Source: a virus. From it: a stretch of 64,000 nt of DNA. This document shows, piece by piece, positions 5,854 through 56,400 of this stretch. The stretch spans positions 1 to 64,000 of the IMG/VR virus record IMGVR_UViG_3300042453_004661; one strand, written 5' to 3'. Under the pieces are notes generated by a model. The model saw only the letters and a program-made list of their open reading frames with translations. It ran no database searches and had not been told where the DNA came from. The stretch's first letter is position 1. Every line of letters starts with the position of its first letter. The position numbers and the translations under genes are program-made.

Positions 5854-6573
5854 ATGAATAAGACTTTTGCCATCCTGATGTCAGCACTTTTGGTTTCTAC
5901 TCCTTGCTACTCCAAGCCTAAAACTATCAAGGTAGCAGTAATTGATACAGGTTTGGATCGTAATGACCACAGATTTAAAAATGTTCTCTGCAAAGATGGC
6001 CACTTTAACTTTGTCAATAACTCTACTGACACCACTGATAACAATGGTCATGGAACCCACATTGCTGGCTTGATTAAACAGCATGCCGGAGTAAAGGGTT
6101 ATTGCCTTGTAATTCTTAAGTATTTTGACAACAGCTCAAAAGATACCTTGCCTGCATTCATCAAAGCTGTTAAGCACGCCAATTCTATCGGCGCAAATAT
6201 TGTAAACTTTTCTGGTGGAGGAAGTATGTTTGAAATTGCTGAGTTTGAAGCAATCAAACAGGCTAGTAAGGTAAAGTTCATTGTCGCTGCAGGCAATAAT
6301 GGTAGCGATATTTCGTCCTCTTTTTCTAAATTTTATCCGGCTTCATATGATCTTCCAAATGTAATGCCAGTAGGCAATCTTGACCAATCCATGCAAAGAG
6401 CCCCCTCCTCTAATTTTGGAGACTCTAGAATTATCTGGGAGGTTGGAACCGACCTCAATTCCACAGCTCCATGCAAAATTGTTCAAAAGTGTGAAGCCAA
6501 AGCTACTGGCACAAGCCAGGCTACGGCTGTGTATACAGGGAAAATGATCAGGGGGATGATGCATGGATACTAA
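5854..6573 (+). CDS. Subtilisin-like (S8) serine protease with signal peptide
   Basis: 239 residues. Residues 1-20 are a Sec signal peptide (MNKTFAILMSALLVSTPCYS), so the protein should leave the cytoplasm. The complete S8 triad is present: D31 in VIDTGLD, H66 in NGHGTH and S221 in GTSQA, with oxyanion N148 in AAGNNG. It is short for a subtilase, with no obvious propeptide between signal and catalytic domain. It is transcribed from its own promoter and has no ribosome-binding site. The next gene overlaps its last 11 bases. Possible roles are degradation of envelope proteins at lysis or of competing surface proteins; an exported protease is unusual for a tailed phage. Confidence 0.9.
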   Translation: MNKTFAILMSALLVSTPCYSKPKTIKVAVIDTGLDRNDHRFKNVLCKDGHFNFVNNSTDTTDNNGHGTHIAGLIKQHAGVKGYCLVILKYFDNSSKDTLPAFIKAVKHANSIGANIVNFSGGGSMFEIAEFEAIKQASKVKFIVAAGNNGSDISSSFSKFYPASYDLPNVMPVGNLDQSMQRAPSSNFGDSRIIWEVGTDLNSTAPCKIVQKCEAKATGTSQATAVYTGKMIRGMMHGY

Positions 6574-7354: not shown

Positions 7355-8227
7355 ATGGGCAAGAAAAACCCCGTCAAATCAAATCCCGGCGTCCTTAATA
7401 TGGGCCAAGTTCAACCCGGCTTCGAGCGGGTTGAGCCGATCATTAGCGTGGACAAGCTTAAGCGACAGTTTTTGTTCGGGATTCCACTCGTAAGTCAACT
7501 GACTGGCGAAGAGATGACTGACGATACGATCAAAGAAATTATCGGCCAAGCTATATCTGATTTTGAGACAGCAACCAGGGTTCCAGTTAGCCCTGTTAGG
7601 ATTAAAGATAGGTTTGACTTCAAGCGCCCTGATGACTTGGCTTTTTCTACTCGTCAGCTTACTCGCTGGCCAGTGATCGAGGTAGAAGCACTCCATGCCT
7701 TATTTCCGGGTCGCATGGACGGTCGCACAATGCCAAATGGTGATCCAATCAATGATCCAGAAAATCAAGCCAACAGCCAGGAGATTGAATATCCCTCAAG
7801 CTGGATTGAGATCGAGGGCGATTCCGGGCTCATGCGTATCATTCCCAAGTCCGGCTCTCTTGTAAATGCTGATATATCATTCATCGCAACCACAGGATAT
7901 CGCTCTATTCTCATGGGGGGCCTAAAGGAATGGCCATCTCTCTGGCGTATAACTTATAGAGCGGGGTTTGATCAGGATAAGATCCCCGGAGTCGTAAATA
8001 AGCTTATTGGTACTTTTGCAGCTATACAGGTAATCAGCAATTGCTACCCAGCTCTTGCCCCTACAAATTCTTTTGGGATTGGGCTAGATGGGATGTCACA
8101 ATCTGTAGGGATTCAGCTTGCCCAGCTTTTGATGGCCCGCATAAACGATCTCATTCAGGATCGAGATCGTCTAATCAATCAAATCAAAATGTATTACGGA
8201 ACTGACATGCAGTTCTCGATATTTTAA
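7355..8227 (+). CDS. Putative head-tail connector / neck protein
   Basis: 290 residues. The middle resembles gp6-like head-tail connector proteins: an acidic helix (DTIKEIIGQAISDFE), then TRWPVIEVEAL, then LWRITYRAGFDQDKIP followed by a helical segment that closes the domain. The first 25 residues are a proline-rich extension, and a C-terminal helix runs to the end (LLMARINDLIQDRDRL). It opens the neck/tail block from its own leaderless-type promoter. The assignment rests on this pattern and on position ahead of tail-completion genes. Confidence 0.5.
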   Translation: MGKKNPVKSNPGVLNMGQVQPGFERVEPIISVDKLKRQFLFGIPLVSQLTGEEMTDDTIKEIIGQAISDFETATRVPVSPVRIKDRFDFKRPDDLAFSTRQLTRWPVIEVEALHALFPGRMDGRTMPNGDPINDPENQANSQEIEYPSSWIEIEGDSGLMRIIPKSGSLVNADISFIATTGYRSILMGGLKEWPSLWRITYRAGFDQDKIPGVVNKLIGTFAAIQVISNCYPALAPTNSFGIGLDGMSQSVGIQLAQLLMARINDLIQDRDRLINQIKMYYGTDMQFSIF

Positions 8228-9454: not shown

Positions 9455-10306
9455 ATGTCACGAAAGGGGATGCCAAAACTACCTCAAATTCCAATGAAGG
9501 GGATATCGCAGATCCAAATGCCCAGCAATATACCGCTAGGCACTTTTAATCCCCAGTCTTTTGAAAAGCTTATTGGCGAAATGGGCATTCGCCTTGTCCA
9601 TGCGAGGCCGATACCCAGCCCTCGAGTTAAGGATGTCCGTGGCGATGATATAGATCCATCAGACAACGAGGCTGAAAATGGATTTTTCTATTATGGCCAC
9701 AAAGACTTTACAGGCACATTCATGTCCAATAGTCTTGATCGTCGCTTTAATATAAATGGTACTTTTGATGGCGATCAGGCCGTAATAGTAATCCCAACAA
9801 AATATGCCGATGGGTCCGAAATGGACATTCAGATATTTGATCGCATCATAGCTCCAGATCTTACTGTCCGATACTATCAACGAGTAGAGCATGATCAGAC
9901 AGGAATCGATAGACTTCATTTCCCAGCCGTTAAAGTTGACTTTATTATGGATGCCCATGACCGTCAGTATGCAGAAGGCATCGACTTTCAAATAGACCCA
10001 AGAGGCAGAATCGAATGGCTTCCTGGAGGCAACAGGCCAGGATATGATCCGGTGATGAATTCTGGTGTTATTTACTCAGTAAACTATTATTGTAGACCAG
10101 TTTTTACCGTTATATCTCTACCTCACCAGCTTCGTGCTACACAGACTAGGGGCCCATCCGGTCCCGGGACTCCAAATGTTCAGCATAGATATCCACAACT
10201 TGCCGTTGTAAGGAAAGATTTTGTGCCATTTGATCCAAATGATCAAGTAGGGCCAAGAACTGGCGATGAGCCTGATTATGGATCTGTAAGGGGTCCAAGA
10301 AGATAG
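9455..10306 (+). CDS. Hypothetical structural protein
   Basis: 283 residues. The N-terminus is proline- and methionine-rich (MPKLPQIPMKGISQIQMP) and the core looks beta-rich, with FYYGHKDFTGTFMSNS and DRIIAPDLTVRYYQRVEHD. It contains IDFQIDPRGRIEWLPG, a motif layout seen in phage neck and tail-attachment proteins that describe offsets, though I do not claim a family. The C-terminus is an unstructured charged tail (PRTGDEPDYGSVRGPRR). Start two bases after the preceding stop. Confidence 0.55.
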   Translation: MSRKGMPKLPQIPMKGISQIQMPSNIPLGTFNPQSFEKLIGEMGIRLVHARPIPSPRVKDVRGDDIDPSDNEAENGFFYYGHKDFTGTFMSNSLDRRFNINGTFDGDQAVIVIPTKYADGSEMDIQIFDRIIAPDLTVRYYQRVEHDQTGIDRLHFPAVKVDFIMDAHDRQYAEGIDFQIDPRGRIEWLPGGNRPGYDPVMNSGVIYSVNYYCRPVFTVISLPHQLRATQTRGPSGPGTPNVQHRYPQLAVVRKDFVPFDPNDQVGPRTGDEPDYGSVRGPRR

Positions 10307-10346: not shown

Positions 10347-11735
10347 ATGTTACCTAAGAATTTCACCATGATGTCGGCCCAAACAGGAAAAGATCATGAC
10401 CATCAGGCTCATGCTGGCCTTATGGCTGATATACATGCTTTAGGCTTAAAACATAAAGTTACTGAAATCAATGGAAAGTATGGATACCCAGAAAAGTCTT
10501 TGATGATAGAGCATAAGGGTCGTCCTCAAGACATTTCTGCATTAGACAATCTTGCCAGAAAATACAAGCAAGAGTCTGTTCTTCATTCTTCATGGGAACA
10601 AGGATCTAATGGCAAAGGCTCCCATAAGAATGAATTACGCTATACAGATGGCCGTCCTTCTGTATTTGGTAAAGGCTACAGAGTCAATCCAGAGGCTGAT
10701 GACTACTATAGTGACCACCCCAAGTTTGGTCGTATTCAAATGCATTTAGACTTTGACTCAAAAGAAGCTACAAAAGCAATTACTAGCCAGGGAAATTTGT
10801 CTATTCAAACTGCAGCCCCGGGCCCGGAAGTTCGCCCTGCCCCGCCAGCAATAGCGAAACCAGAAAAAACAGACAACCCTCCTAGGAAAAAGTTCAAAAA
10901 AGTTCCAGCAAATGCGCCGGAGACATCTCCTGAATCAAATGAGTCCCCAGCAAAGCCAGTAAAAGATCTTAACAAGACTATTCTCCATCAAGATGGCGAA
11001 ACCATGATTGACACTAAGTCTCAAGGGATAGCTATTTCTGCCTTGCCAAAATCAATGATTGCATGGGGAGTGACGCATATGGTCCCCATGAAATTAAATG
11101 AAGTAAAAGACTTGTCTATTGGGGATGCTCGTATTAAAATAGTTAAGAAGAGCCCGGATTTATATGCGGGATGGATTGAAAAAGAAGCCAATATTGGACA
11201 TAAGTTTGAGCGCCTTACCCTTCCACAGCTACTCATCCATCTTCAGAGCGCTCTTGAGACTTATGGCAGAGAAGATCAAGTTTTTGCAGTCCCTAGCAAA
11301 ACCGAGTCAGATTCTATTGAAGAAAAAATTCAACCAAAACTTCAAAAAAAGAACCTGACCGAAATAGGCAAAGCCATCTCTGATGCAATTGATGAAACAC
11401 CTGAATCTTCTGAGGCAGATCGTCAGGCTAAGATCTTAGAAAAGCTTGAAACTCTTAGGGCAAAGATACAGTCTGAAATTATCCCTTCTAAAGACCTTGC
11501 ACAAGGAATAGATGAGCCAGAAGAGTTTTGCTCTGCATGCGAAGCCGAAGCCGAAGAATGTTCATGCTACGAAGGATTAAGCGCACCAAGGCTAGAATTT
11601 GATGGCAAAAAGATCAAAATTTTCTTTAAGTCAGACTGGAGCCCCGAAGACAAAGACAATTTTAAGGATGACTTAAAGAAAAGAGCTGGTATAATCCTTA
11701 AGAAGAGGGAAGGCGCCAGGAAGACAAGAAAATGA
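10347..11735 (+). CDS. Hypothetical protein, DUF3293-like N-terminus and Cys-rich C-terminal segment
   Basis: 462 residues. Residues about 15-140 (DHQAHAGLMADIHALGLKH, GKYGYPEKSLMI, ARKYKQESVLHS) follow the pattern of small DUF3293-type domains, in which a short protein distinguishes old from new entries and ends in a glutamine-glutamate-serine motif. That match is from memory and weak. The centre (160-215) is proline/lysine-rich and disordered. Residues about 390-410 hold a cluster CSACEAEAEECSC that could bind metal. The last 15 residues are very basic. The gene overlaps the mCpol-like gene by ATGA, so the two are probably co-translated. Confidence 0.5.
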   Translation: MLPKNFTMMSAQTGKDHDHQAHAGLMADIHALGLKHKVTEINGKYGYPEKSLMIEHKGRPQDISALDNLARKYKQESVLHSSWEQGSNGKGSHKNELRYTDGRPSVFGKGYRVNPEADDYYSDHPKFGRIQMHLDFDSKEATKAITSQGNLSIQTAAPGPEVRPAPPAIAKPEKTDNPPRKKFKKVPANAPETSPESNESPAKPVKDLNKTILHQDGETMIDTKSQGIAISALPKSMIAWGVTHMVPMKLNEVKDLSIGDARIKIVKKSPDLYAGWIEKEANIGHKFERLTLPQLLIHLQSALETYGREDQVFAVPSKTESDSIEEKIQPKLQKKNLTEIGKAISDAIDETPESSEADRQAKILEKLETLRAKIQSEIIPSKDLAQGIDEPEEFCSACEAEAEECSCYEGLSAPRLEFDGKKIKIFFKSDWSPEDKDNFKDDLKKRAGIILKKREGARKTRK

Positions 11736-12919
11736 AAAAACCATTAAATCCAGTAGAAGTGCTTCGGGAGTTGCTCGGTAGAGTACAGGCCCGAAGGGCT
11801 CTTGAACAAGATCCAGAAACCCAAGAATCAATCGACCAAGTCCATGCGGCTGGCGGTGAAATGATGCCCGACTATAAGGGTAAAAGCGTATACATTTCAT
11901 TTGATGGCGATAATATTGGGAATGCAGTCGCTCGAGCCGAGAATATGGACGATGAGCAAACCCTTGCCCAGGTATCGCAAAAGATTCAGGCAGGGCAAGA
12001 TCTGTTTGTTAATTTTCTCACCCAACATCAGGGCAGGCTGATTCAGGCAGGGGGAGATGAAGGATTAGGAATTTGTAACTCAAACTGCCTTGTAGACCTT
12101 GAAGAATTCAGACAACAATACAAGGAATTAGTTGGAGCTACAGTTACCGTAGGGGTAGGCACAAAAATATCAGAAGCTACCAAGGCCAGGATGCTAGGCA
12201 AGCTTCGTGGAAAAGATCAAGTTTGCCATTTTGACGGATCAACAGAAAAAGAAATTGAGCTTAGAAGCCAAACAGAAGACCCAGAAGCCAAGAAGCTTGG
12301 CCAGGCTGGTCTGATTGGCGGTGTGCCTAAATTTGGGATTGATCAAGATCAGTCACAAGATCAGGACTGGCAACAAGACTATGACGCACCAGAGCAAGAA
12401 GAGTCGTCAGGCATTTCCGATCATGCAAGTCGATTTGGCGAAGCAGAAGACCCAGGCGTAGAAGACGAATACGATATGCCTTCAGGGCAAGAGCCAGAGG
12501 CCGAACAGCAGGCTCCTGACTCCCAAGATGAATTTGAAGACCCATGGGACCAGGCCAAGCATGAGCGAGAAGGCAGTAAGCCCCAATCCAAAGAAAGAAG
12601 GATTGTAGATAAAGAAACTGGAAGAGAATTTGTTCTTCATGGTCTAGACCACGGAGAGTCAGAAGAAGATTTCCAGCCAGAAATGCAACAGCCGGAGGAA
12701 GAAGAGCAAGAGCCTCAACAGGCCCAAGAGTCAGAAGAGCCCCAGCAAGAAGAGCAAGAGCTTTCTGATGAAGAAAAAGGATATGGGGACTACACTGATC
12801 TTCCTTTTGAAGAGCGTGATGATTTACAAAATCGATTGATTGCAGAAAAAATCGCCAAAGAAGAGGGTGTTAATCCAAATTTTCTTTATCTCGCCTCTAA
12901 AAAATTATCGAGGGATTAA
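11732..12919 (+). CDS. mCpol/GGDEF-like nucleotide polymerase domain protein
   Basis: 395 residues. Residues about 50-168 form a minimal palm domain: beta strand VYISFDGDNIG (D58, D60) and the catalytic hairpin QAGGDEGLGI (GGDE 107-110), then ATVTVGVGTKIS and a KLRGKDQV segment. This order matches mCpol (minimal CRISPR polymerase) and GGDEF-like cyclases, which make cyclic di- or oligonucleotides. All expected acidic residues are present. Residues 200-380 are acidic, Gln/Glu-rich and disordered, and include FEDPWDQAK at about 268-276, shared exactly with the LRV-repeat protein at 53426. It sits between neck proteins, overlaps the upstream gene by ATGA, and abuts the 835-residue gene. Function in a phage is unknown: signal production, signal decoy or structural use are all open. 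Confidence 0.75.
   Translation: MKKPLNPVEVLRELLGRVQARRALEQDPETQESIDQVHAAGGEMMPDYKGKSVYISFDGDNIGNAVARAENMDDEQTLAQVSQKIQAGQDLFVNFLTQHQGRLIQAGGDEGLGICNSNCLVDLEEFRQQYKELVGATVTVGVGTKISEATKARMLGKLRGKDQVCHFDGSTEKEIELRSQTEDPEAKKLGQAGLIGGVPKFGIDQDQSQDQDWQQDYDAPEQEESSGISDHASRFGEAEDPGVEDEYDMPSGQEPEAEQQAPDSQDEFEDPWDQAKHEREGSKPQSKERRIVDKETGREFVLHGLDHGESEEDFQPEMQQPEEEEQEPQQAQESEEPQQEEQELSDEEKGYGDYTDLPFEERDDLQNRLIAEKIAKEEGVNPNFLYLASKKLSRD
12533..12555 (+). repeat. Copy 1 of a shared coding segment (FEDPWDQAK)
   Basis: This 23-base stretch encoding FEDPWDQA is identical to 56390-56412 in a different gene 44 kb away, and both copies continue with the sequence K-H/Y-E/D-R-E. Shared exact coding between otherwise unrelated proteins points to recent exchange or to a functional tag. 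Confidence 0.8.
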
Positions 12920-15427
12920 ATGGACTTTCGGGAGGCTGTTCGCAGACATCATGAGCATCTTAAAGATCCCACTAAAGAAAGTGGCAATGAATCTGCAGAA
13001 AATTTCATCAATATCCTACAAAGAGCAGAAGATCGCACACACCATGCATCCTCTCTTAGCTGGCTAAACGATCTTTTTCAAGATGGTCATCTATCTCAAG
13101 ATCAGCAAGATAGGATCATTAACCTTAAGCATATTCCTAAGACCAATCAATCCTCACAGCTCGTAGACGGCATAATGGAAAATATGCCTGATGAAAAAAG
13201 AAAACAAATACTTAACGACAAGTTAGGAATTACGGGCGGTAAAAAGATTCGTGATGTAGAAAAAGATCACGACTGGAATAACTGGGAATCCCCTCCAACA
13301 GGTGATGAATCCGATCCCTACGCAAGATTTTATAAAGGCATTGATTGGGAATCGTCAAAGCATCTTACGGATGATCAGGCCGAGCATATCAAGAGACATG
13401 GAAGCGTTGAGCAAAAGCTAAATCTATTTTCAAATCCACATATAGATCCAAGACATGGAATTGAAATGTGGAATAAATGGAGCGACAACGATACTCACCA
13501 CGGATACCATAGGCATCATTTATCAGATTATTTGATGCGCCATCAGGAAGATAACATAGAGGATGACATAGAAGATAGGGCTTATACAATAGCTCAAAAT
13601 CGTCTTCCAATTGATAAGTGGGCCAAAGAGACTTTGGCAAAAAATGGCTTAAAATATTTTAGACATAAAGATGAGCTTTTAAATCATATCAATGACAATC
13701 TAGACCTTTACGATACTGTAGGCCCAAATCCTGGATTCAATAAAGATGCCCCCGTAGACCCGGCTAATAATCCAGAAACAATAGATTACGCAGACCCCAA
13801 CAATCCTCAATCCAAGACTATTAACGATCACCCAAATCTTCCCCAGCTTCTCCAGCAGGCCGATAATCAGCTCATCAACACAAAAGGCTATCCTAGCGTC
13901 ATAGGGCAAAGAAGTGAAGGAATCCCAAAACTTCATGAGGGCGAATGGCATCATGATGCCGTAAGGGAAATGTCAAAAAATATTGCCGAAGACCTCCGTG
14001 AAGAAGCCATTTCTTCAGCTTATAAAAATGAAGACTATCTTCCAAAGCATCTCAGGGGCAAGATCTCTTCAATTAAAAATGAATTAACATCAAAATCTCA
14101 AATAGATACAAAAAACGCATTTGCCAACAACGGCTTAGATATTTCTAAATTTTCTTCAGATCATGAATACGCCCCTGGCTTGTACCATCTAAACATGCTC
14201 AAGGACCATACTGAAAATAATAAAGGCAAAATAGATCTAGGATCTATGGTCAAAAAATATCCGGACATGAAAGATGCCCTAAAGAGTGCATTCGGAGACA
14301 AGCAGTCATTGTCCTCAAAAGATATTGATTCAAAAATAAAATCTTTGCCAAAAACAAAATATTCAATTTCTGCAAGGAGCTGGGAGCCACAAAATCCTCA
14401 AAATCTTAACAGAAGAAATCAGCTTGTTTTAAGGCTAGAGCATACTCCCGAATCCATGGCCCAAATCAAATCAGATCCATCACTAGAAAATATATTCAAT
14501 AAGGTGCATAAGTCGTCAAAAGCTTCAGATCATCCTGTAGGGACAAACACGATAGGATGGGCAAGAATAGATACTTCCGACCCTTCTCATTGGGTAATAG
14601 ATGAGACTCAATCTGATTTTAGCGAATCATTGATTAGAACAATATCTGAAAATGAATACAATCCATCAAAGAGGCAGTCTATAGTAGATGGGATTCAAAA
14701 AATTAGAGACATTCATGGAAACTGGCAAGAAAATCTAATGAGCCATATTGTTGATTTGGCTAAAAAGCATGGGGTTGAAAAGCTTTCTATTCATACCCCG
14801 GAATCAAAAGCAAGTCAGCTTGGCGCCAGCAGAATCCATAGTGCGTATAGGGAAAACTATCAGAAAACCCCCAAGAGCATGGGATTCTCAAAAACAGAAG
14901 GCCTATCTTTGCCATTGACCGACCTTGGGAGAATAGCTTTTACTAAAAAAATCCCATACGATGATAAAGTAAGACAAGATACTCATTATTTTGCTATGGG
15001 CCATCATAGACAGCGATACCATGTACATAAAGCAATTGCAGATAGGATTAGATCAGAAAGCCCTGAAATTGCTGCCGAACACGATGAGACCGCAAAAAAG
15101 CATAAGATGCTTTTTTTCTCGCACCGAAGAAAAGGCCTACGAGTAAAGGCTCCGATTTTTATTGATAACCCACCAAACGATCTCAACGATAGAAGAAGAA
15201 GCGTATCATTTCATGAGCCTCCTCTTAACATGGAAGGGTTGTTAGCGTCAAAAAAAGATTTAAAAGAAGAACCTTCTGGTTTTGTAGGATATCATTCAGA
15301 CTCTATTGTTGATGGAAGCATGAAGCCCGAGTCTTTGCCAGCCCACACCCTAGAGATTGGGCAAAAAATGAAGAAATCAGTAAGGCTAGGGAAAATTCTA
15401 GCTCGTAAAATTATGGAGGCATTATGA
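12920..15427 (+). CDS. Large polyvalent-type protein with EIQSD-like domain
   Basis: 835 residues, helical and charged. The N-terminal half (1-470) shows no known domain and has many His/Asp/Asn. Around residues 546-570 it has GWARID followed by WVIDETQSDFSESL, matching the h-h-R-x-D...EIQSDW motif of a domain found in phage large polyvalent proteins. About 60 residues later comes VDLAKKHGVEKLSIHTPES (starting near 612), in the place where those proteins have an AAE-x-G-x-x-x-hAWTT segment. The C-terminus is basic (KKSVRLGKILARKIMEAL). Polyvalent proteins are large phage and element proteins thought to be delivered with DNA. Whether this one is packaged is inference from its place in the neck operon. 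Confidence 0.55.
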   Translation: MDFREAVRRHHEHLKDPTKESGNESAENFINILQRAEDRTHHASSLSWLNDLFQDGHLSQDQQDRIINLKHIPKTNQSSQLVDGIMENMPDEKRKQILNDKLGITGGKKIRDVEKDHDWNNWESPPTGDESDPYARFYKGIDWESSKHLTDDQAEHIKRHGSVEQKLNLFSNPHIDPRHGIEMWNKWSDNDTHHGYHRHHLSDYLMRHQEDNIEDDIEDRAYTIAQNRLPIDKWAKETLAKNGLKYFRHKDELLNHINDNLDLYDTVGPNPGFNKDAPVDPANNPETIDYADPNNPQSKTINDHPNLPQLLQQADNQLINTKGYPSVIGQRSEGIPKLHEGEWHHDAVREMSKNIAEDLREEAISSAYKNEDYLPKHLRGKISSIKNELTSKSQIDTKNAFANNGLDISKFSSDHEYAPGLYHLNMLKDHTENNKGKIDLGSMVKKYPDMKDALKSAFGDKQSLSSKDIDSKIKSLPKTKYSISARSWEPQNPQNLNRRNQLVLRLEHTPESMAQIKSDPSLENIFNKVHKSSKASDHPVGTNTIGWARIDTSDPSHWVIDETQSDFSESLIRTISENEYNPSKRQSIVDGIQKIRDIHGNWQENLMSHIVDLAKKHGVEKLSIHTPESKASQLGASRIHSAYRENYQKTPKSMGFSKTEGLSLPLTDLGRIAFTKKIPYDDKVRQDTHYFAMGHHRQRYHVHKAIADRIRSESPEIAAEHDETAKKHKMLFFSHRRKGLRVKAPIFIDNPPNDLNDRRRSVSFHEPPLNMEGLLASKKDLKEEPSGFVGYHSDSIVDGSMKPESLPAHTLEIGQKMKKSVRLGKILARKIMEAL

Positions 15428-16133: not shown

Positions 16134-16925
16134 ATGAAATTTGTTGTGGGCGTAGATCGCACCCTGGCCATGGCTATTGCGGAAGCTGCAAATCAGATCA
16201 ATGAACAGACCCAGGCTGCCGTCAATGAGATAGTGGCCCAGACTGCTATTGATGCTTTTGAGCAAGCAAAAGTCTACGCCATGAGCCGACTAGACACGAC
16301 AGCGAGGCAATATACGGATGCTCTCGAGTTTTCTCAAGTTGCTCCAGGTATTTTTTCGGTGGGCCTCCGGGAAGAAGCCAAGCATCTAGAGGAAGGCTAC
16401 GGCGGTTTTGATATGAAGCCTGGCCTGCTCAAAAATGCCAAGAAAGTATCCAAGTTAGGATTTAGGTACAGGTCTATCCCAATGGAGCAAAAAGGCAAGG
16501 GTAAACCTGGCACTACTCGAGGCGACATGCTTAGGGATTTAAGGACTTTGAGAAAAGCATTTGGTGATAAAGGAATTACCAAAAATGCATCGGGTAAGGC
16601 AATTTTGGGCAAGGCACTTACATTTAACAGGAACTCACTTGGAAGATGGTCAGCATCGGGGGCTGGGGCAGGCGCTCTGCCAAAGCAAGAGCTAGGCCAA
16701 ATGCCTATCCATGAAAATCTATCTGGAGTAGTTAAGTATCAATTCCAGTACAAAAGCGGAAAAGTCGGAAGTCAATTTGTTGTCTTTAGGACTGTATCTG
16801 AAAATCCAAACGCCAAAGGTAAATGGAAGCATCCAGGATTCGGCGGGATTAGGGCCTTTAATGATCTTGAAAACTGGGTAATTAGACAGCTAGAAACCAA
16901 GCTTAGAGAGCTTTTTGGCCAGTAG
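16134..16925 (+). CDS. Tail-completion / neck protein, HK97 gp10-like
   Basis: 263 residues. A helical N-terminus (AMAIAEAANQINEQTQAA) is followed by a beta domain and, near the C-terminus, KGKWKHPGFGGIRAF, the W-x-H-P-G signature of HK97 gp10-like tail-completion proteins, with a terminal amphipathic helix (LENWVIRQLETKLREL). Such proteins sit at the tail-capsid interface or tail end. It starts right after the preceding stop with a TAAATG junction. Confidence 0.7.
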   Translation: MKFVVGVDRTLAMAIAEAANQINEQTQAAVNEIVAQTAIDAFEQAKVYAMSRLDTTARQYTDALEFSQVAPGIFSVGLREEAKHLEEGYGGFDMKPGLLKNAKKVSKLGFRYRSIPMEQKGKGKPGTTRGDMLRDLRTLRKAFGDKGITKNASGKAILGKALTFNRNSLGRWSASGAGAGALPKQELGQMPIHENLSGVVKYQFQYKSGKVGSQFVVFRTVSENPNAKGKWKHPGFGGIRAFNDLENWVIRQLETKLRELFGQ

Positions 16926-16939: not shown

Positions 16940-17857
16940 ATGAGCATACCTCTTTTAGATATTCATATCAAGTACCTAGTAGAGTACACTATAAAGGTCG
17001 TTCGCTCTAATCCGGACAAATATCTAAAAGAAATTTTTGGGGATGCCAGGCTGGCTCCTCATGACAATCTGTACGGAAACAGAATGCTTGATTCGGTCAA
17101 AAAATGGATCGAAACAACTAAAATAAATGTGGTGTTAGGTTATGACTTATCTCAAATGGAGCTTCCGGCTGTCACGGTTAATCTTGCGTCGTCTTCGCCA
17201 TCTTTGCCGTTTTTAGGCGATGTGGGAGACATATTGGAGGAAGAAGTTGTCCAATATGATCAGGAAATAGTAGTGGATGATTTTCAGGCCGAGTCTCTCG
17301 AGTATTCTGAAGACAAGCTTTTTAGATACCTTGAACTGAAAGATAGTATGGACCCAGCCAAGGCCGAGCTGGTACTCCCTGGCCTGCACTTAAAAGACGC
17401 AAAAGATCAGGAATTCCTTATTGGGTTTGATGATTACAAAAATAAGCTAACAGTTTCTGAGCTTTCCATACCAGTTGCAGACATAGACGCATCTACCCTA
17501 AAAGTCGTAAGTCCTTTAAAACAAAGGCGTTATCGTGGTGGGGTCATGCAATTCCAGGATACGGTTTCCGTCACTATCCATACCCATCAAAACAGGAATG
17601 AAGGAACTTATCTTTGGGCTATAGTGATTTGGGGATTACTCAAGTTTAGGCCACTTTTGATTGAGACTTTTGGCTATGATCTTGCCATGCCCAGCTCTTC
17701 TGATTTATCCATAGATCCCAGCTACATGGGAAATGCTGTCTGGGTTCGTCAGGTTACACTTACAGGTAAGACAGTATGGAGCTGGGAAGGTCCTAAGATG
17801 CAGGATATTATCGGTATGCTTTTGACAATAAATGTTGGACGGCGAGAAGATAAATGA
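16940..17857 (+). CDS. Putative tail terminator / tail-completion protein
   Basis: 305 residues. It has a mostly alpha/beta pattern with TINVVLGYDLSQMELPAVTV early and VTIHTHQNRNEGTYLWAIV, LKFRPLLIETFGYDLAMP and WVRQVTLTGKTVWSW late. The late part resembles phage tail-terminator and neck proteins that end in a strand-helix-strand W-R-x-V-T-L-T segment. It lies two genes upstream of the sheath, where such proteins sit in myophages. Starts from a leaderless-type promoter. Confidence 0.5.
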   Translation: MSIPLLDIHIKYLVEYTIKVVRSNPDKYLKEIFGDARLAPHDNLYGNRMLDSVKKWIETTKINVVLGYDLSQMELPAVTVNLASSSPSLPFLGDVGDILEEEVVQYDQEIVVDDFQAESLEYSEDKLFRYLELKDSMDPAKAELVLPGLHLKDAKDQEFLIGFDDYKNKLTVSELSIPVADIDASTLKVVSPLKQRRYRGGVMQFQDTVSVTIHTHQNRNEGTYLWAIVIWGLLKFRPLLIETFGYDLAMPSSSDLSIDPSYMGNAVWVRQVTLTGKTVWSWEGPKMQDIIGMLLTINVGRREDK

Positions 17858-18132: not shown

Positions 18133-19920
18133 ATGGCTATTATCGTAAACTTTGCTGGTGCTTCACTTCGTAAGCCCGGTGCATATTCTAGGACCAAAAT
18201 CGCATCCAGCGGTGCGGCTGAAGCCCAGTTGGGTGTTGTCGCCCTTATCGGTGAGGCAGATGAAGGTCCTGCATTTAACGCTTCCGATGTAGAGGCTTCT
18301 GCATACGGCCCAGATCAATTTTCTGATATTCAGAATCAATTTGGATCTGGAGAGCTTGTCGATATGGCTAAGCTTGCTTTGGCTCCTTCTGTAGATCCCC
18401 AGATTGCTGGTGGCGCACAAAAGCTTTATCTCTTGAAGACAAATGTCGGCTCCAAGGCAACTCTCGCCCTTCCTACTAGCTACGGCAGTCTATCTGCTAA
18501 GCTTGCCGGAAAGAATGGAAATAAGATCAGCGCACAAGTTCAAGTTACTGGATCAACCGTCGTGATTACAGTAGCCCGCTCCGATCTCGGAGTATCTGAG
18601 ATTTCTGAGCCACTCGGAAATAAAGTTGTAATGACCCTTCAGTGTACTGATGGCGTAGCTAGCGTTGCGACTGTCACTATCGCTGGCGGAGTATTGACCA
18701 CCTCTGTAACCGGAGGCTCAGCATCTCCTCTTAATATTAAGCTTTCTGACTTCGCCACTATTGGCCAGGTAGTAGAGTACATCAACTCTATCCCCCTCTA
18801 CTCTGCAGCCGTTGGCTCTGCTCCAGGCGCAGTCAATATGCCTACATCTGTTCTTGATTCTAAAACCGCAGTAGATATTCTTGCTGTCGCTAGTTGCAAA
18901 AGAGATCTTCAAGATGTTAAAGACTTTTTCGCTTCCAGCGGTCTAGTAGATTTCTCCCCAACCGCTACTGCCGGATTGCCTACCACCCTCGTCAAGTCTT
19001 TTTTGACTGGTGGAGCTAAAGGATCAACTACTGCTTCTCAAGTTACTGCTGCAATTGATGCTCTTGCAAAAGTTCGTGTGAACTTTATTGTTCCACTCTT
19101 TAGCCAAGACGCTACAGCAGACATTGCTTCAGGACATACCGAGGCAGGATCTACCTACACTATTGCAGGCGCAATCGCAGCTCTTAAGTCCCACTGTGCC
19201 CAGATGAGTACAGTTCGTGGTCGTAAAGAGCGCCAAGGATTTGCTGGTATCAAGGCTTCTTACGACGATGCAAAGCAAGCATCCTCAGATAATGCATTCA
19301 ATCGCCTTCAGTTGGTATTCCAAGAAGTTCAAGTTTTGGCTTCTGACGGATCTACTCCGTTTAAACAGCCTCACGCTCTAGCTGTAATTTCTGCAGCCAT
19401 GAAAGCGGCAGCTGTTGTTGGTCTTCCTAATACCTTTAAGGCTCCTAACATTCTAGCATTCAAGGCTCCTTCTGGAGACTTTGATCCAGAAACCCAAGCA
19501 GATGATGCAATCGATGCAAACCTTTGCTTCGTTGAAAGGGCTCCAGGCGGTGGATTCCGTTTCGTACTCGACAACTCAACCTACGCCCAGACAAAAGATG
19601 CATGGTTCAATGCTCGTCCGTCTGTAATCTATGCAGCAGATACCGCTGCATTGTCTATCCGATTGAACACCGAGACTCTCGTAGGGCTTCGCAATAGCGA
19701 TGTATCTGTAGAGAGCATCAAGAACCTTTTGATTGGTGTAATGGATAGCCTCAGAGCTTCAGGAATCATCGTTCCTGACGCATCCTCTGGCGGTCGTGGA
19801 TTTAAAGATTTGTCCGTTCGAATTGAAGGCAGTATTGTTCGCATTAGCGTAACTCTAATCCTTGTAGAAGGTCTCGAGTTTGTACTCAGCGACATTACCG
19901 TACAACGAGCTTCATCTTAA
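18133..19920 (+). CDS. Tail sheath protein
   Basis: 595 residues. It begins with the conserved sheath opening (MAIIVNFAGASLRKPGAY, then VALIGEADEGP). The C-terminal third has NAFNRLQLVFQEVQVL, CFVERAPGGGFRFVLDNST and a final strand-rich region with RISVTLILVEGLEFVLSDI, the pattern of gp18-type contractile sheaths. It is the strongest evidence that this is a myovirus. The reading frame is intact, GGGGGA precedes the ATG and the next gene is 13 bases downstream. Confidence 0.92.
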   Translation: MAIIVNFAGASLRKPGAYSRTKIASSGAAEAQLGVVALIGEADEGPAFNASDVEASAYGPDQFSDIQNQFGSGELVDMAKLALAPSVDPQIAGGAQKLYLLKTNVGSKATLALPTSYGSLSAKLAGKNGNKISAQVQVTGSTVVITVARSDLGVSEISEPLGNKVVMTLQCTDGVASVATVTIAGGVLTTSVTGGSASPLNIKLSDFATIGQVVEYINSIPLYSAAVGSAPGAVNMPTSVLDSKTAVDILAVASCKRDLQDVKDFFASSGLVDFSPTATAGLPTTLVKSFLTGGAKGSTTASQVTAAIDALAKVRVNFIVPLFSQDATADIASGHTEAGSTYTIAGAIAALKSHCAQMSTVRGRKERQGFAGIKASYDDAKQASSDNAFNRLQLVFQEVQVLASDGSTPFKQPHALAVISAAMKAAAVVGLPNTFKAPNILAFKAPSGDFDPETQADDAIDANLCFVERAPGGGFRFVLDNSTYAQTKDAWFNARPSVIYAADTAALSIRLNTETLVGLRNSDVSVESIKNLLIGVMDSLRASGIIVPDASSGGRGFKDLSVRIEGSIVRISVTLILVEGLEFVLSDITVQRASS

Positions 19921-20464: not shown

Positions 20465-20494
20465 AAAAAGCCACTCCAAAAGGGTGGCTTTTTT
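20465..20494 (+). terminator. Rho-independent terminator
   Basis: A-tract, then stem GCCAC(T)CC with loop AAAA and GGGTGGC, then a run of six T. Base pairing is GCCAC with GTGGC and CC with GG, with a bulged T. It closes the neck-sheath operon and separates it from the accessory region. Confidence 0.85.
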
Positions 20495-29491: not shown

Positions 29492-30649
29492 ATGTCTACT
29501 TTGAAATCTACCAAATCAATCCCTATTTGCAGTTTTTGTGGAGCAGACGCAGGCGACTCTCTTCTAGTGAGAGGGCAGGACCTGTCTCATATTTGCGAGA
29601 GCTGTATTGATGAATGTACGGAAATAGTTAAAGAACAGCGCAATAAGAAAGAGATGAAATCCAGCAGGCCTTCATTGACTCCTGCTACGATCAAAAAGCA
29701 TCTAGATCAGTATGTTGTTGGTCAAGACGATGCAAAGCGGGTTATCTCTATTGCCATATATTCTCACTACAAAAGAATCAACAAATATGACACAGGGGGA
29801 GTCGAGATCCAGAAATCCAATATCCTTATGTTGGGGCCTACCGGATCTGGCAAAACCCATATGGTCAAACAGCTTGCTCGACTCCTCAAGGTCCCCGTAG
29901 CGATATCTGATGCGACCTCTATTACCCAGGCCGGATATGTAGGAGATGATGTTGAATCGATCCTATCCAGGCTTGTAATGGCCGCAAACGGAAATATCGA
30001 GCTAGCCCAAAAAGGCATCGTATATGTTGACGAAATTGATAAGATAGCAAAGGTCGTAAGCGATAGAGGCCGGGATGTATCTGGGGAAGGCGTACAGCAA
30101 GGCCTTCTAAAGATCCTTGAGGGTAGTGAGGTATTCATTAACCCAGAAGGTGGCAAAAAGAACTCTACTAGCAGAGAAGTTTCATTTAAGACCGATGATG
30201 TCTTGTTTATTTGCGGAGGAGCCTTCGGTGGCATCTCTGAGACTAGAAAGAAAAAGAAACTTGGGATTGGCTCTACTGAAGAAGAAGACCCGCATGCCCC
30301 GGTCGAGTCAAAAGACTTGGTTAAGTTTGGTCTAATTCCTGAGTTTGTTGGTCGTCTTCCGGTCATCGCCCAGCTCAAGCCTCTATCTGTAGAGGATTTG
30401 GTAAAGATCCTTACAGAAACCAAGAACAATTTGACAGAGCAGTATAAAGCACTATTAAAGATAGATGGTGTAAATGTTGATTTCTCAAAGGATTTCCTTC
30501 ATAAGGTGGCTGAAAAAGCCCAAAGGGAAGGAACCGGGGCTCGAGGCCTGAGAACTATTATGGAAAAGAACATGGAAGACATCCTGTTCAGCGGTCCAGA
30601 TCTTAAGGATAAAGAGATCAGCATAACAGATAAGGATTTCAAGGAGTAA
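29492..30649 (+). CDS. clpX-like: ClpX-like AAA+ unfoldase with altered loops
   Basis: 385 residues against about 424 in Escherichia coli. The N-terminal zinc domain (C13, C16, C35, C38), Walker A GPTGSGKT (115-122), Walker B VYVDEID (D180, E181), pore loop GYVG (148-151) and the LIPEFVGRLPV segment are all present, so it should be an ATP-driven unfoldase. Two substrate/partner loops are changed: the IGF tripeptide that docks ClpP is GIGS (residues 258-261) in a loop about 10 residues shorter, and the RKH loop is KKN (222-224). A ClpP-independent or host-redirecting role is plausible. The gene has a Shine-Dalgarno and is followed by small unknown genes. Confidence 0.9.
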   Translation: MSTLKSTKSIPICSFCGADAGDSLLVRGQDLSHICESCIDECTEIVKEQRNKKEMKSSRPSLTPATIKKHLDQYVVGQDDAKRVISIAIYSHYKRINKYDTGGVEIQKSNILMLGPTGSGKTHMVKQLARLLKVPVAISDATSITQAGYVGDDVESILSRLVMAANGNIELAQKGIVYVDEIDKIAKVVSDRGRDVSGEGVQQGLLKILEGSEVFINPEGGKKNSTSREVSFKTDDVLFICGGAFGGISETRKKKKLGIGSTEEEDPHAPVESKDLVKFGLIPEFVGRLPVIAQLKPLSVEDLVKILTETKNNLTEQYKALLKIDGVNVDFSKDFLHKVAEKAQREGTGARGLRTIMEKNMEDILFSGPDLKDKEISITDKDFKE

Positions 30650-50242: not shown

Positions 50243-51562
50243 ATGAGCAAACTACCTCCATTTTTTTCTAAGACCCAAGACCTTCAAAAAGCCGAGGATG
50301 AGACTATCAATCCTACGCTTGGCCTTGAGACTCCAAAGAAAATCATCAAGCTTAAAGAAGGACACAATAAAGGCCGTCAGGCTAAGGTAGTAGCTGAAAA
50401 CTCCCAAGAATTTAAGATCGTCCCCAGGACCAATCAAAAACCATTTAAGGTAGCTGGGGGGCCAGCCGATACTGCTGGTCAAATTCTTGATGAAGCAAAT
50501 AGTCCAATTGTATGGGAAAAGAATCGTAAACATGATATTTTGGCCCCAGGTGGGATTCACAAGAAAGAACACGAAGAAAAAGTAAAGAATATCTACCAAC
50601 CTAAAAAGGCCGAGCCTAATTTTGTATTTACAAAAGACAATCACCACCAAGGCATCCCTCATGATGAAGATCAAAAGAATCTAATTCATGGCATTGATCT
50701 TCGTGAGATTAAAAAGCTTGGCGATGCGGGAGGCGACTCAGATGACCTTGGATGGACCGCCGAGTGGGCAGCTTGTGGTGTTGGCAAGAATAAAGCCGGG
50801 AAAAGCTGTCTCGTCAAGGGTAGGATGCCGGATGAATTTCTAGATAAAAATTCTGGCATTGGTCGAGAGATGGCGTCAGATTATAAGTTATTCAGTACGG
50901 CACAGAGAGAAGCCGTTTATTACAATATAGCAAAAGCATTAGGGCTTCATAAATACATTCCTGTTACATCTGTTGTCCACGATCAAACCAAGGCCCCTGT
51001 AAAAAACTTTAAGAGGGCCCCACAGGATCATGGCCAGGCTGGCAATCATTACTCTGTCATGGAAATGATTCCAAATGCCAAGCATTACTCGGGCCTCCCC
51101 TCACAACTCGGCACAATGAAGAGAGCCCATGACAGTGGGGACCTACACAAGCTTGGCCTTATGAATGCTTTTTTGTATAATACAGATAGACATGGCAAGA
51201 ACTTCATGTTTAGTGAAAATAACAATAATTTTCACCTGATTGACCATGGCCTTACTTTTGGATATCGTGGAAGGCCATTTGTTATGCCTGCCTATCTTAG
51301 GATCGCCCATCTCGAGCATCGGCTTCCTGATGAAATACATCCGGAAGCCAGAAACTGGATCAATAATCTCAATATTGATGACATAAAAAAAGAGCTAGAC
51401 TCCCACGACATACCTATTCAGCACAAAAGAGCTACATTGGCTGCAATTCGAAAAGCAAAAGAATCGATTGGTGGAGATCCAGAGAATAAAAGAGCGTTTA
51501 GCTCACATCTAAGAGAGATAAGTAATGCAGGATTAAGATCATTCCTTAGAGGAGATGATTAA
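50243..51562 (+). CDS. PI3/4-kinase- or HipA-like kinase-fold protein
   Basis: 439 residues. Residues 1-130 are polar and basic, with LQKAEDE at 15-21. The kinase part runs from about 165. REAVYYNIAKALGLHKYIPV (222-241) is the alpha-C-like helix with E223; YSVMEMIP is a hinge-like segment; N-T-D-R-H-G-K-N (313-320, catalytic D315, N320) and HLIDHGLTF (331-339, metal D334) match PI3/PI4-kinase and HipA-type active sites (D-R-H...N ... I-D-H-G). Missing canonical glycine loop is usual for this group. Phosphate target unknown (lipid, protein or nucleotide). It starts the large effector-like block, 9 bases after the coiled-coil gene. Confidence 0.7.
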   Translation: MSKLPPFFSKTQDLQKAEDETINPTLGLETPKKIIKLKEGHNKGRQAKVVAENSQEFKIVPRTNQKPFKVAGGPADTAGQILDEANSPIVWEKNRKHDILAPGGIHKKEHEEKVKNIYQPKKAEPNFVFTKDNHHQGIPHDEDQKNLIHGIDLREIKKLGDAGGDSDDLGWTAEWAACGVGKNKAGKSCLVKGRMPDEFLDKNSGIGREMASDYKLFSTAQREAVYYNIAKALGLHKYIPVTSVVHDQTKAPVKNFKRAPQDHGQAGNHYSVMEMIPNAKHYSGLPSQLGTMKRAHDSGDLHKLGLMNAFLYNTDRHGKNFMFSENNNNFHLIDHGLTFGYRGRPFVMPAYLRIAHLEHRLPDEIHPEARNWINNLNIDDIKKELDSHDIPIQHKRATLAAIRKAKESIGGDPENKRAFSSHLREISNAGLRSFLRGDD

Positions 51563-53425: not shown

Positions 53426-56400
53426 ATGGCTATCCCGCCCAAAAAAATCTATACCCAGATGCAAAAGTCTGATTCAGATGGCCAGGCTCCTATCTCTTTT
53501 AATTTTAAAAGCCTTAAGCCGGAGCAGAAAGCAAAATTCCTTCAAAATCCTAATCTTCATCCAGATATACTTCATAAGTTAAGTGAGGATGATAATTTAA
53601 AGTTGTCAATAGCAGAGAATCCTAATACTCGCTCAGACACACTTCATAGGCTAAGCGATAGTGAGTATGGGATTGTAAGGGGTGCAGTAGCAGAGCATCC
53701 AAATACCCACCCAGACACGCTTCATAAGTTAAGTGAAGATAGGGATGATGATGTGAGGAGGATGGTAGCAGAGAATCCCAATGCCCATCCGGATACAATT
53801 CATAAGCTGAGTGGGGATAAGAATTCGCGTGTAAGGGAGGCAGTAGCAAAGCATCCTAACACCCATCCAGATATACTTCATAAGTTAAGTGGGGATAATT
53901 CTTTTATTGTAAAAGGAGCAGTAGCGAGAAATCCTAATGCCCATCCAGACACGCTTCGTAAGTTGAGTGAAGATGAGGGGGATTGGTCTGTAAGGGAGGC
54001 GGTAGCAAAGCATCCTAATATTCATCCGGACACGCTTCATAGGCTAAGTGAGAGTGAGTATGAGACTGTAAGGGAGGCAGTAGCAAGGAATCCAAATGCC
54101 CACCCAGATATACTTCATAAGTTGTGGAAAGACAAGTGGCCAAGAGTAAGATCTGCAGTAGCAGAGCATCCTAATACCCGCTCAGATATACTTTTTGGAT
54201 TATGTTACGATAGGGATTTTGAAGTAAGGGCTGGGGCAGCAAGAAATCCAAATATTCGTCCAGCTCTACTTGATAAGTTAAGTAGGGATACTCATTGGCC
54301 TGTAAGACAGGCAGCAGCAGAGCATCCTAATAACCATCCGGATATGCTTGATAAGTTAAGTAGGGATGTGGAGTGGGATGTAAGAGAAGCAGCCCGTAAA
54401 AACCCTAACCATCCAAATAACCAGATGAAAAAGTCTGATTCAGATAGCCAGACCCCTATCTCTTTTAATTTTGCAAACCTTAAGCCGGAGCAGAAAGCAA
54501 AATTCCTTCAAAACCCCAATGTTCATCCTAATGCGCTTCATGCTTTAAGCGGGGATGAGAATCATGAAGTAAGATTTGCAGTAGCAAAGCATCCTAATGC
54601 CCATCCAGATACACTTCATGGACTAAGTGAAAGAGAAGATGAGAATGAAAGTATAAGGCAGGCAGTAGCAAAACATCCAAATACCCATCCAGACACGCTT
54701 CATAAATTGAGTAAGGATGACGATTTAAAGCGGTTTGTGGCAATTCACCCAAATACCCATCCAGACACGCTTAATAGGTTAAGTAAAGACAAGTGGTCAG
54801 GAGTAAGAAGGGAGGTAGCAAGGAATCCAAATGCCCATCCAGATCTACTTCATAAGCTGAGCGAGGACAGGGATGTGTATGTAAGGGAAGGGGCAGCAAG
54901 GAATCCAAATGCCCATCCAGATCTACTTCATAAGTTAAGCGGGGATGAGAATCATGAAGTAAGATTTGCAGTAGCAAAGCATCCTAATGCCCATCCAGAT
55001 ACACTCCATAAGTTGAGTGGGGATAGCTTCGACTACAGCATAAGGGAGGCGGTAGCAATTCATCCCAATACCCATCCAGACATACTTCATAATTTAAGCG
55101 AGGATGAACATCTTTATGTAAGAGATGCAGTAGCAAAGAATCCAAATACCCGTCCAGATACTCTTCATAAATTGAGCGGGGATGAGGATGTAGATATAAG
55201 ACAGATAGTGGCCAGGAGTGCTAATGCTGGTCCAGAAACACTTCATAAGCTGAGTGGGGATAGGTCTTTTATTGTAAAAATGGAAGTGGCAAGGAATCCT
55301 AATACTCACCCAGATACACTTCATAAGCTGAATGGGGATGAGTCTTTTACTATAAGAGAGGCGGCCCGTAAAAACCCTAACCATCCAAATAACCAGATGA
55401 AAAAGTCTGATTCAGATAGCCAGACCCCTATCTCTTTTAATTTTGCAAGCCTTAAGCCGGAGCAGAAAATAAAATTCCTTCGAAACCCCAATGTTCGGCT
55501 TGATCTACTTCAGCAGTTAAGTGAGGATGAGGATGGAGATGTAAGGCAGGCAGTAGCGAAACATCCTAATACCCATCTAGATATAATTCATAAGTTGAGT
55601 GGGGATGAGCATAGCGGTACAAGGGCTATAGTAGCAAGGAATCCCAATATCCGTCCAAATATACTTCATGCATTAAGTCACGATAGGGATTTTGAAGTAA
55701 TGGCTGGGGCAGCAAGGAATCCAAATGCACATCCAGAAATACTTCAGAGGTTGAGTGAACATGAACATCCGTATGTAAGAATAGCGGTAGCAGAGAATCC
55801 TAATACCCATCCAGATATACTTCATAAGCTTAGTCAGGATGCGTATCAGCCTGTAAGAATGGCGGTAGCAAACCATAAAAATACCCACCCAGATATACTT
55901 AATGTGCTGAGTGATGATAAGGACGAGCTTATAAGAGAGGGGGTAGCAAAGAATCGCAATACCCATCCAGATACAATTCATAAGCTGAGTGGCGATAAGG
56001 ATGAGGATGTAAGATATGCGGTAGCAAGGAATCCAAATGCCCACCCAGATATACTTCATAGGCTGAGTCAAGACGATAATAGGTATGTAAGACAGGCGGT
56101 AGCACGACATCCCAGCACCCATCCAGACACGCTTCATAAATTAAGTGGGGATGAATTTTCTAGCGTAAGACAGGGATTGGCAATGAATCCTAATACTCAT
56201 CCGGATATGCTCAATAAGTTGGGCGGGGACAGAGATGGAGATGTAAGAGAAGCAGTAGCAAAACATCCAAATACCCATCCAGACACGCTTCGTAGGTTAG
56301 GTGGAGATTTAGATGTAGATGTAAGATATGCAGCCCTTCAACATCCTAACCATCCAAATAACCAGATGAAAAAGTCCGGTTCTACTCAGTTTGAAGACCC

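Follow-up and report, generated by a model that had tools for sequence, protein, structure and literature searches.

Why would a phage carry, in the operon that encodes its head and neck, a nucleotide polymerase of the mCpol family, which the main text of two recent studies otherwise places in bacterial and archaeal defence loci, as a guard against phages that remove signalling nucleotides (PMC12657218, PMC12657230)? The question is raised by P0001, a gene at 11732-12919 of a viral DNA stretch of 64,000 nucleotides (nt), hereafter the window (positions 1-64,000 of IMG/VR record IMGVR_UViG_3300042453_004661). The whole record is 124,585 bases long, is without end repeats and is perhaps a genome fragment; its phage is a large contractile-tailed one. 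We conclude that P0001 is nearly certainly an mCpol, that it apparently belongs to an undescribed, widespread phage family, and that the chances are about even that it is a cyclic-dinucleotide synthase associated with the virion and directed at nucleotide signalling in the host.

The identity of P0001 rests on concordant profile and structural matches. Residues 54-165 match the Pfam mCpol family PF18182 (51.4 bits, E=1.7e-13; curated cut-off 26.4 bits), the NCBIfam mCpol model NF033576 falls slightly below its cut-off of 40 (39.4 bits, E=8e-10), and the Cas10 palm PF22335 scores 31.8 bits (cut-off 27). A profile of the phage family retrieved from the PDB two sequences of the Panoptes protein OptS alone (E=6e-18 and 1e-17). 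The AlphaFold2 model, built with 17 relatives, contains a confident palm (predicted local distance difference test score of ~98 across most of residues 51-160), for which OptS occupies Foldseek ranks 1-6 (template-modelling score 0.82-0.88 by OptS length), with GGDEF domains and Cas10 ranking lower. These results bear out a preliminary description made from the letters of the window, which had assigned the gene to the mCpol/GGDEF-like polymerases and proposed structure prediction against mCpol and GGDEF domains as a check. The intact site that it had described is likewise present: VYISFDGDNIG holds D58 and D60, QAGGDEGLGI holds D109 and E110, and D58 and D109 align with D6 and D57, the catalytic residues of OptS according to the main text of PMC12657218. 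The GGDEF family PF00990 has no match anywhere in the window record, the P0001 motif reading GGDEG, and the single close match in a public viral structure library (root-mean-square deviation 1.1) is a protein without annotation from an uncultured phage.

Set beside OptS of Klebsiella pneumoniae (PDB 9mnr, 9pd0 and 9nwn), P0001 has the same palm fold, equivalents of D6 and D57, a GVG motif and a C-terminal GK motif, and S82 corresponds to OptS S30, one of the two base-choice residues, whereas Q86 replaces OptS N34. The proteins are only ~20% identical, OptS has AAD-G where P0001 has GGDE, and P0001 differs further in its N-terminal helices, its acidic tail, its phage virion operon and its lack of an OptE partner. 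With Cas10 palm 2 of type III CRISPR systems it shares the GGD-acidic hairpin and the PF22335 match; however, it is a single palm of 120 amino acids (aa), not the two palms with HD domain and Csm/Cmr partners by which Cas10 is recognised, genes for a CRISPR RNA complex were not found, and no CRISPR families were seen among the neighbours in Pfam and PADLOC scans.

The preliminary description had treated the gene as a lone oddity. The gene is real, but it is not isolated: its relatives form a phage family that is conserved and syntenic and includes polyvalent fusions. This family first surfaced through synteny with Myxococcus phage Mx1 and through sheath alignment, which gave 80 loci, two further scans adding members; single-protein scans of viral contigs and a tblastn search of 50,697 phage records had returned no relatives of P0001. 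PF18182 scores above its cut-off in 22 of 45 records selected by sheath, and in Mx1 in addition, a count that is a lower bound because many of these records are fragments. Matches below the cut-off proved to be GGDEF domains (G019 and the second matches in G033 and G028) or a dead mCpol (G044). Two pattern scans, insensitive to divergent mCpols such as OptS, found no relatives in bacterial and archaeal genomes. Phage mCpols find no mention that we could locate in passages of PMC12657218 and PMC12657230.

Many SPO1-like phages share one order of genes at this locus, namely 6.4, a zinc-ribbon gene, mCpol, 7.1, 7.2 and sheath. The window sheath is similar to those of Mx1 and the SPO1 group, and the SPO1 neck genes 6.3, 6.4, 7.1 and 7.2 have collinear homologues in the window; in SPO1 itself 7.1 directly follows 6.4, whereas the corresponding window interval holds the zinc-ribbon-tailed gene, mCpol and two further genes. 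Four other loci likewise lack the mCpol gene. P0001 thus lies, as had been noted, between neck genes (homologues of SPO1 6.3, 6.4, 7.1, 7.2 and the sheath protein 9.1 stand on its two sides), and its reported translational coupling is visible at both ends: ATGA (11732-11735) overlaps its start codon with the stop of the upstream gene, and in TAAATG (12917-12922) its stop directly abuts the downstream start. A homologue of the upstream partner precedes mCpol in most loci; this partner carries a NUDIX domain in L011, L016 and L026 and a weak SAM-lyase/DUF3293-like domain in the window and L009, all five having a common C-terminal region.

Across the family, 23 of 35 phage sequences, L055 among them, retain D58, D60 and D109 together with E or D at position 110; D60 is present in every one of 34 relatives, D109 in 31/35 and E or D110 in 33/35. 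Among the departures, a six-member group that includes L079 has N58 with the remaining site intact, L054 combines A58 with GGEE, and position 58 is S or K in L109 and L110. The Mx1 protein (WNM70340.1, annotated as hypothetical; E=1e-5 to 3e-7) occupies the corresponding locus with a homologous domain and keeps D60, but it carries D58S, D109A and E110V, is predicted to be inactive and, unlike P0001, has a helical tail and a C-terminal motif. In L045 and L093 the site is largely erased, so that, judged by sequence, the mCpols of these two and of Mx1 look dead. The ratio of non-synonymous to synonymous substitution rates (dN/dS) of the domain is 0.06-0.41 in close pairs and 0.14 in L109/L110, a pair that has lost D58, which indicates purifying selection on the domain whether or not its site is complete. 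The window clade (window, L009 and L010) has the complete catalytic site throughout and an intact palm without the helical module found in most members; loss of the tail module beside a complete palm suggests that selection preserved the palm there, which favours activity.

Outside the palm the family is variable. Structure prediction of the tails was confident only for the helical module and gave no useful fold elsewhere. The C-terminal motif LPVGS..GKVKV..DG..W..V.SG....P.SSR occurs in many members and forms a separate small open reading frame (ORF) in the N58 group, and an N-terminal stretch resembling that of P0001, compared by eye, is present in L010 and L009. GNAT is part of the same protein as mCpol in four members (L089, L096, L104 and L107), HEAT is fused in L088, and L100 has an HExxH stretch; we read the mCpol and upstream-partner proteins as probable carriers with exchangeable enzymatic parts. 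These fusions and the place of the gene in the virion operon agree with what is described for polyvalent proteins (PMC5512222). The same study reported GGDEF domains in polyvalent phage proteins and suggested that invaders exploit nucleotide signals (the word mCpol is absent from its text). Those proteins resemble P0001 as virion-linked palm cyclases with proposed cyclic nucleotide signals on entry; P0001, by contrast, is an mCpol and not a GGDEF protein.

A second cyclase accompanies the first in part of the family. Of 22 records tested, 8, Mx1 among them, have a PF00990 match above the cut-off, and the GGDEF signature is present in all seven that were inspected, where the domain either ends a homologue of the Mx1 prohead protease or lies next to one. 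Mx1 itself pairs its degenerate mCpol with a signature-bearing GGDEF protein (WNM70324.1) annotated 'nucleotide cyclase'.

We propose that P0001 would form a homodimer, an mCpol cyclase whose fold links it to Cas10 and GGDEF proteins, and would convert nucleoside triphosphates (most likely ATP, possibly with GTP) to a cyclic dinucleotide with no trigger needed. OptS, in the main-text account of PMC12657218 and PMC12657230, is constitutively active, takes up two ATP in a pocket of the dimer and produces 2',3'-cyclic di-AMP, which restrains its effector; by analogy, a phage mCpol with an intact site should be capable of forming a comparable nucleotide. From its preserved site P0001 is probably active in the window phage, and its making a nucleotide signal is plausible. 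It would be produced within the head-neck operon and would probably travel inside the virion or on its surface. Its virion-operon origin and polyvalent kinship suggest that it associates with the particle and acts as the phage enters; we hold virion delivery to be slightly favoured. Acting early in the infected cell, it would add a nucleotide signal to deceive the effectors of the host instead of destroying or soaking up signals.

That an mCpol family is conserved in a phage head-neck operon suggests that such signals are made, and perhaps injected, by phages themselves. The counter-measures known from phages cleave or sequester signals, so a phage that supplied one would be following another strategy: the anti-CBASS (cyclic-oligonucleotide-based antiphage signalling system) proteins Acb1, Acb2 and Acb4 resemble P0001 by functional analogy only, as phage proteins acting on immune nucleotides, but they destroy or bind signals where P0001 would make one, and they are not homologous to it as far as is known. 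Counter-defence by a supplied signal is nonetheless a tentative to doubtful proposal. At the doubtful end stands the fuller version, in which a virion-delivered synthase would flood the cell so that its ligand keeps inhibitory-signal systems such as Panoptes off or competes at CBASS-type effectors, and in which phages of this group would possess two enzymes for the injection of nucleotide signals, mCpol in the neck cassette and GGDEF beside the prohead protease. Our gradings of activity, delivery and counter-defence are judgements, not computed values.

Several observations weigh against P0001 as a delivered synthase. Because D58 is missing from 11 of 34 relatives (it is kept in 23) and most of the site is gone in three, part of the family must be incapable of catalysis; the loss is repeated, position 58 having changed at least four times on a tree with weak support for several branches and an unsure root, and the domains of Mx1, L045 and L093 are still recognisable after losing most of the site. 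The preliminary description had let its reading depend on conserved metal aspartates in homologues, an expectation borne out by the retention of the site in most members and contradicted by those 11. In P0001 itself a single domain is recognised, unlike in the multi-domain polyvalent proteins. The absence of a visible effector partner, already remarked on, holds among the matches listed from Pfam and PADLOC scans (25 of 38 families in one effector scan), which include no CARF, SAVED, S-2TM-beta or HEPN effector near P0001; no sensor, CBASS or Panoptes component was seen near it, and neither Acb2 nor Acb4 was found in the window record, the Acb4 search lacking a working positive control.

A rival reading makes the palm chiefly a module for structure or nucleotide binding within a neck or head protein, its catalysis ancestral and kept in some lineages, with a conserved job done by the fold, the three-helix module and the C-terminal motif. 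Synteny fixed across deep divergence, the degenerate versions in Mx1, L045, L093 and L109/L110, the constraint persisting in L109/L110 after D58 was lost, the six-member N58 clade and a locus (L032) that keeps the tail module without mCpol all speak for it; the window clade, however, keeps the full site and loses the tail module, the frequencies of D109 and of an acidic residue at 110 are difficult to reconcile with a domain whose role is structural alone, and SPO1 and four other loci dispense with the gene. We regard this as unlikely, though it is the strongest of the rivals. An enzyme serving the phage life cycle or host physiology, for example through a c-di-NMP signal that tunes host behaviour or sets the timing of assembly, and not counter-defence, would fit the parallel GGDEF cyclases of the same phages and the finding, reported in PMC8669472, that a c-di-GMP (cyclic di-GMP)-dependent polysaccharide makes E. 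coli sensitive to phage N4; yet no receptor was seen among phage-encoded proteins and the recurrent loss suggests a dispensable, host-dependent benefit, so that we find it improbable. The defence loci in which mCpol is otherwise known would recommend a phage-carried defence module, either a Panoptes-like guard or superinfection exclusion, but the virion operon and the lack, among the listed matches, of the adjacent S-2TM-beta, CARF- or SAVED-2TM effector that marks Panoptes make this very improbable indeed. Between the synthase that we favour and a structural role, nature's own series of relatives (intact, with N58, or dead), which includes the protein of the cultured phage Mx1, makes a direct test possible.

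Table 1. Coordinates of the mCpol gene, its parts and neighbours in the window, and of GGDEF genes in related loci.
Feature	Location	Strand	Basis or remark
SPO1 gp6.3 homologue (phrog_772)	7355-8227	+	
SPO1 gp6.4 homologue	9455-10306	+	virion structural protein
Upstream partner gene	10347-11735	+	zinc-ribbon-like C-terminal region (by eye); weak SAM-lyase/DUF3293-like N-terminal domain
mCpol gene P0001	11732-12919	+	395-aa ORF
N-terminal helices, residues 7-40	11750-11851	+	secondary structure of AlphaFold2 model
mCpol palm domain, residues 52-170	11885-12241	+	PF18182; AlphaFold2; OptS top PDB match
Motif 1, D58-G59-D60	11903-11911	+	D58 = OptS D6
Motif 2, G107-G108-D109-E110	12050-12061	+	D109 = OptS D57
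Acidic low-complexity tail, residues 171-395	12242-12916	+	sequence; family helical module and C-terminal motif absent
Downstream 835-aa protein	12920-15427	+	no Pfam family; L045 homologue adjoins the dead-looking mCpol
SPO1 gp7.1 homologue	16134-16925	+	immediately after mCpol in many relatives
SPO1 gp7.2 homologue	16940-17857	+	
Tail sheath, SPO1 gp9.1 homologue	18133-19920	+	
GGDEF with prohead protease	L091:3448-7866	-	
GGDEF with prohead protease	L123:7174-7905		
GGDEF with prohead protease	L124:1902-6002		
GGDEF with prohead protease	L125:3739-7536	-	
GGDEF with prohead protease	L126:3100-4266		
GGDEF with prohead protease	L127:6146-7381		
GGDEF with prohead protease	L128:3172-4419	-	

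Co-occurrence of Acb sponges was considered as support for an anti-Panoptes role and dropped, Acb4 being found in 0 of 12 records (no working positive control) and Acb2 in 1 of 12. The single case, an Acb2/Tad1 hairpin protein at G028:C1:40008-40175, belongs to a phage that encodes mCpol and GGDEF as well.

Further observations concern the mCpol locus in relatives. At L032:2489-3112, a gene at the mCpol locus encodes the helical module and a similar C-terminus with no mCpol. In L053 an HNH-like endonuclease gene, identified by sequence (302-1228), is inserted immediately upstream of mCpol. An apparent swap of the catalytic core between L053 and L056, whose flanks are 97% identical, was considered as diversifying selection and rejected; because of the inserted HNH-like gene, we attribute the N-terminal divergence of these mCpols to homing co-conversion.

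P0001 also has the motif FEDPWDQAK in common with a 1778-aa leucine-rich-variant repeat protein of the virion region (window 53426-58762). A docking tag is disfavoured, given a 23-nt identical DNA block (encoding FEDPWDQA) and the motif's absence from any other protein; the sharing is more likely a recombination trace.

Elsewhere in the window, a subtilase-family protease with a signal-like N-terminus (5854-6573) lies between the tail-fibre and neck genes, and a strong intrinsic-terminator-like hairpin (20465-20493) follows the sheath region and likely ends the neck-sheath transcription unit. The phage encodes a ClpX homologue (29492-30649) and, at 103750-105465 of the record, a GroEL-like protein, so judged by its sequence. 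A HipA/PI-kinase-like protein (window 50243-51562) has as its homologue the virion-operon kinase of Mx1.
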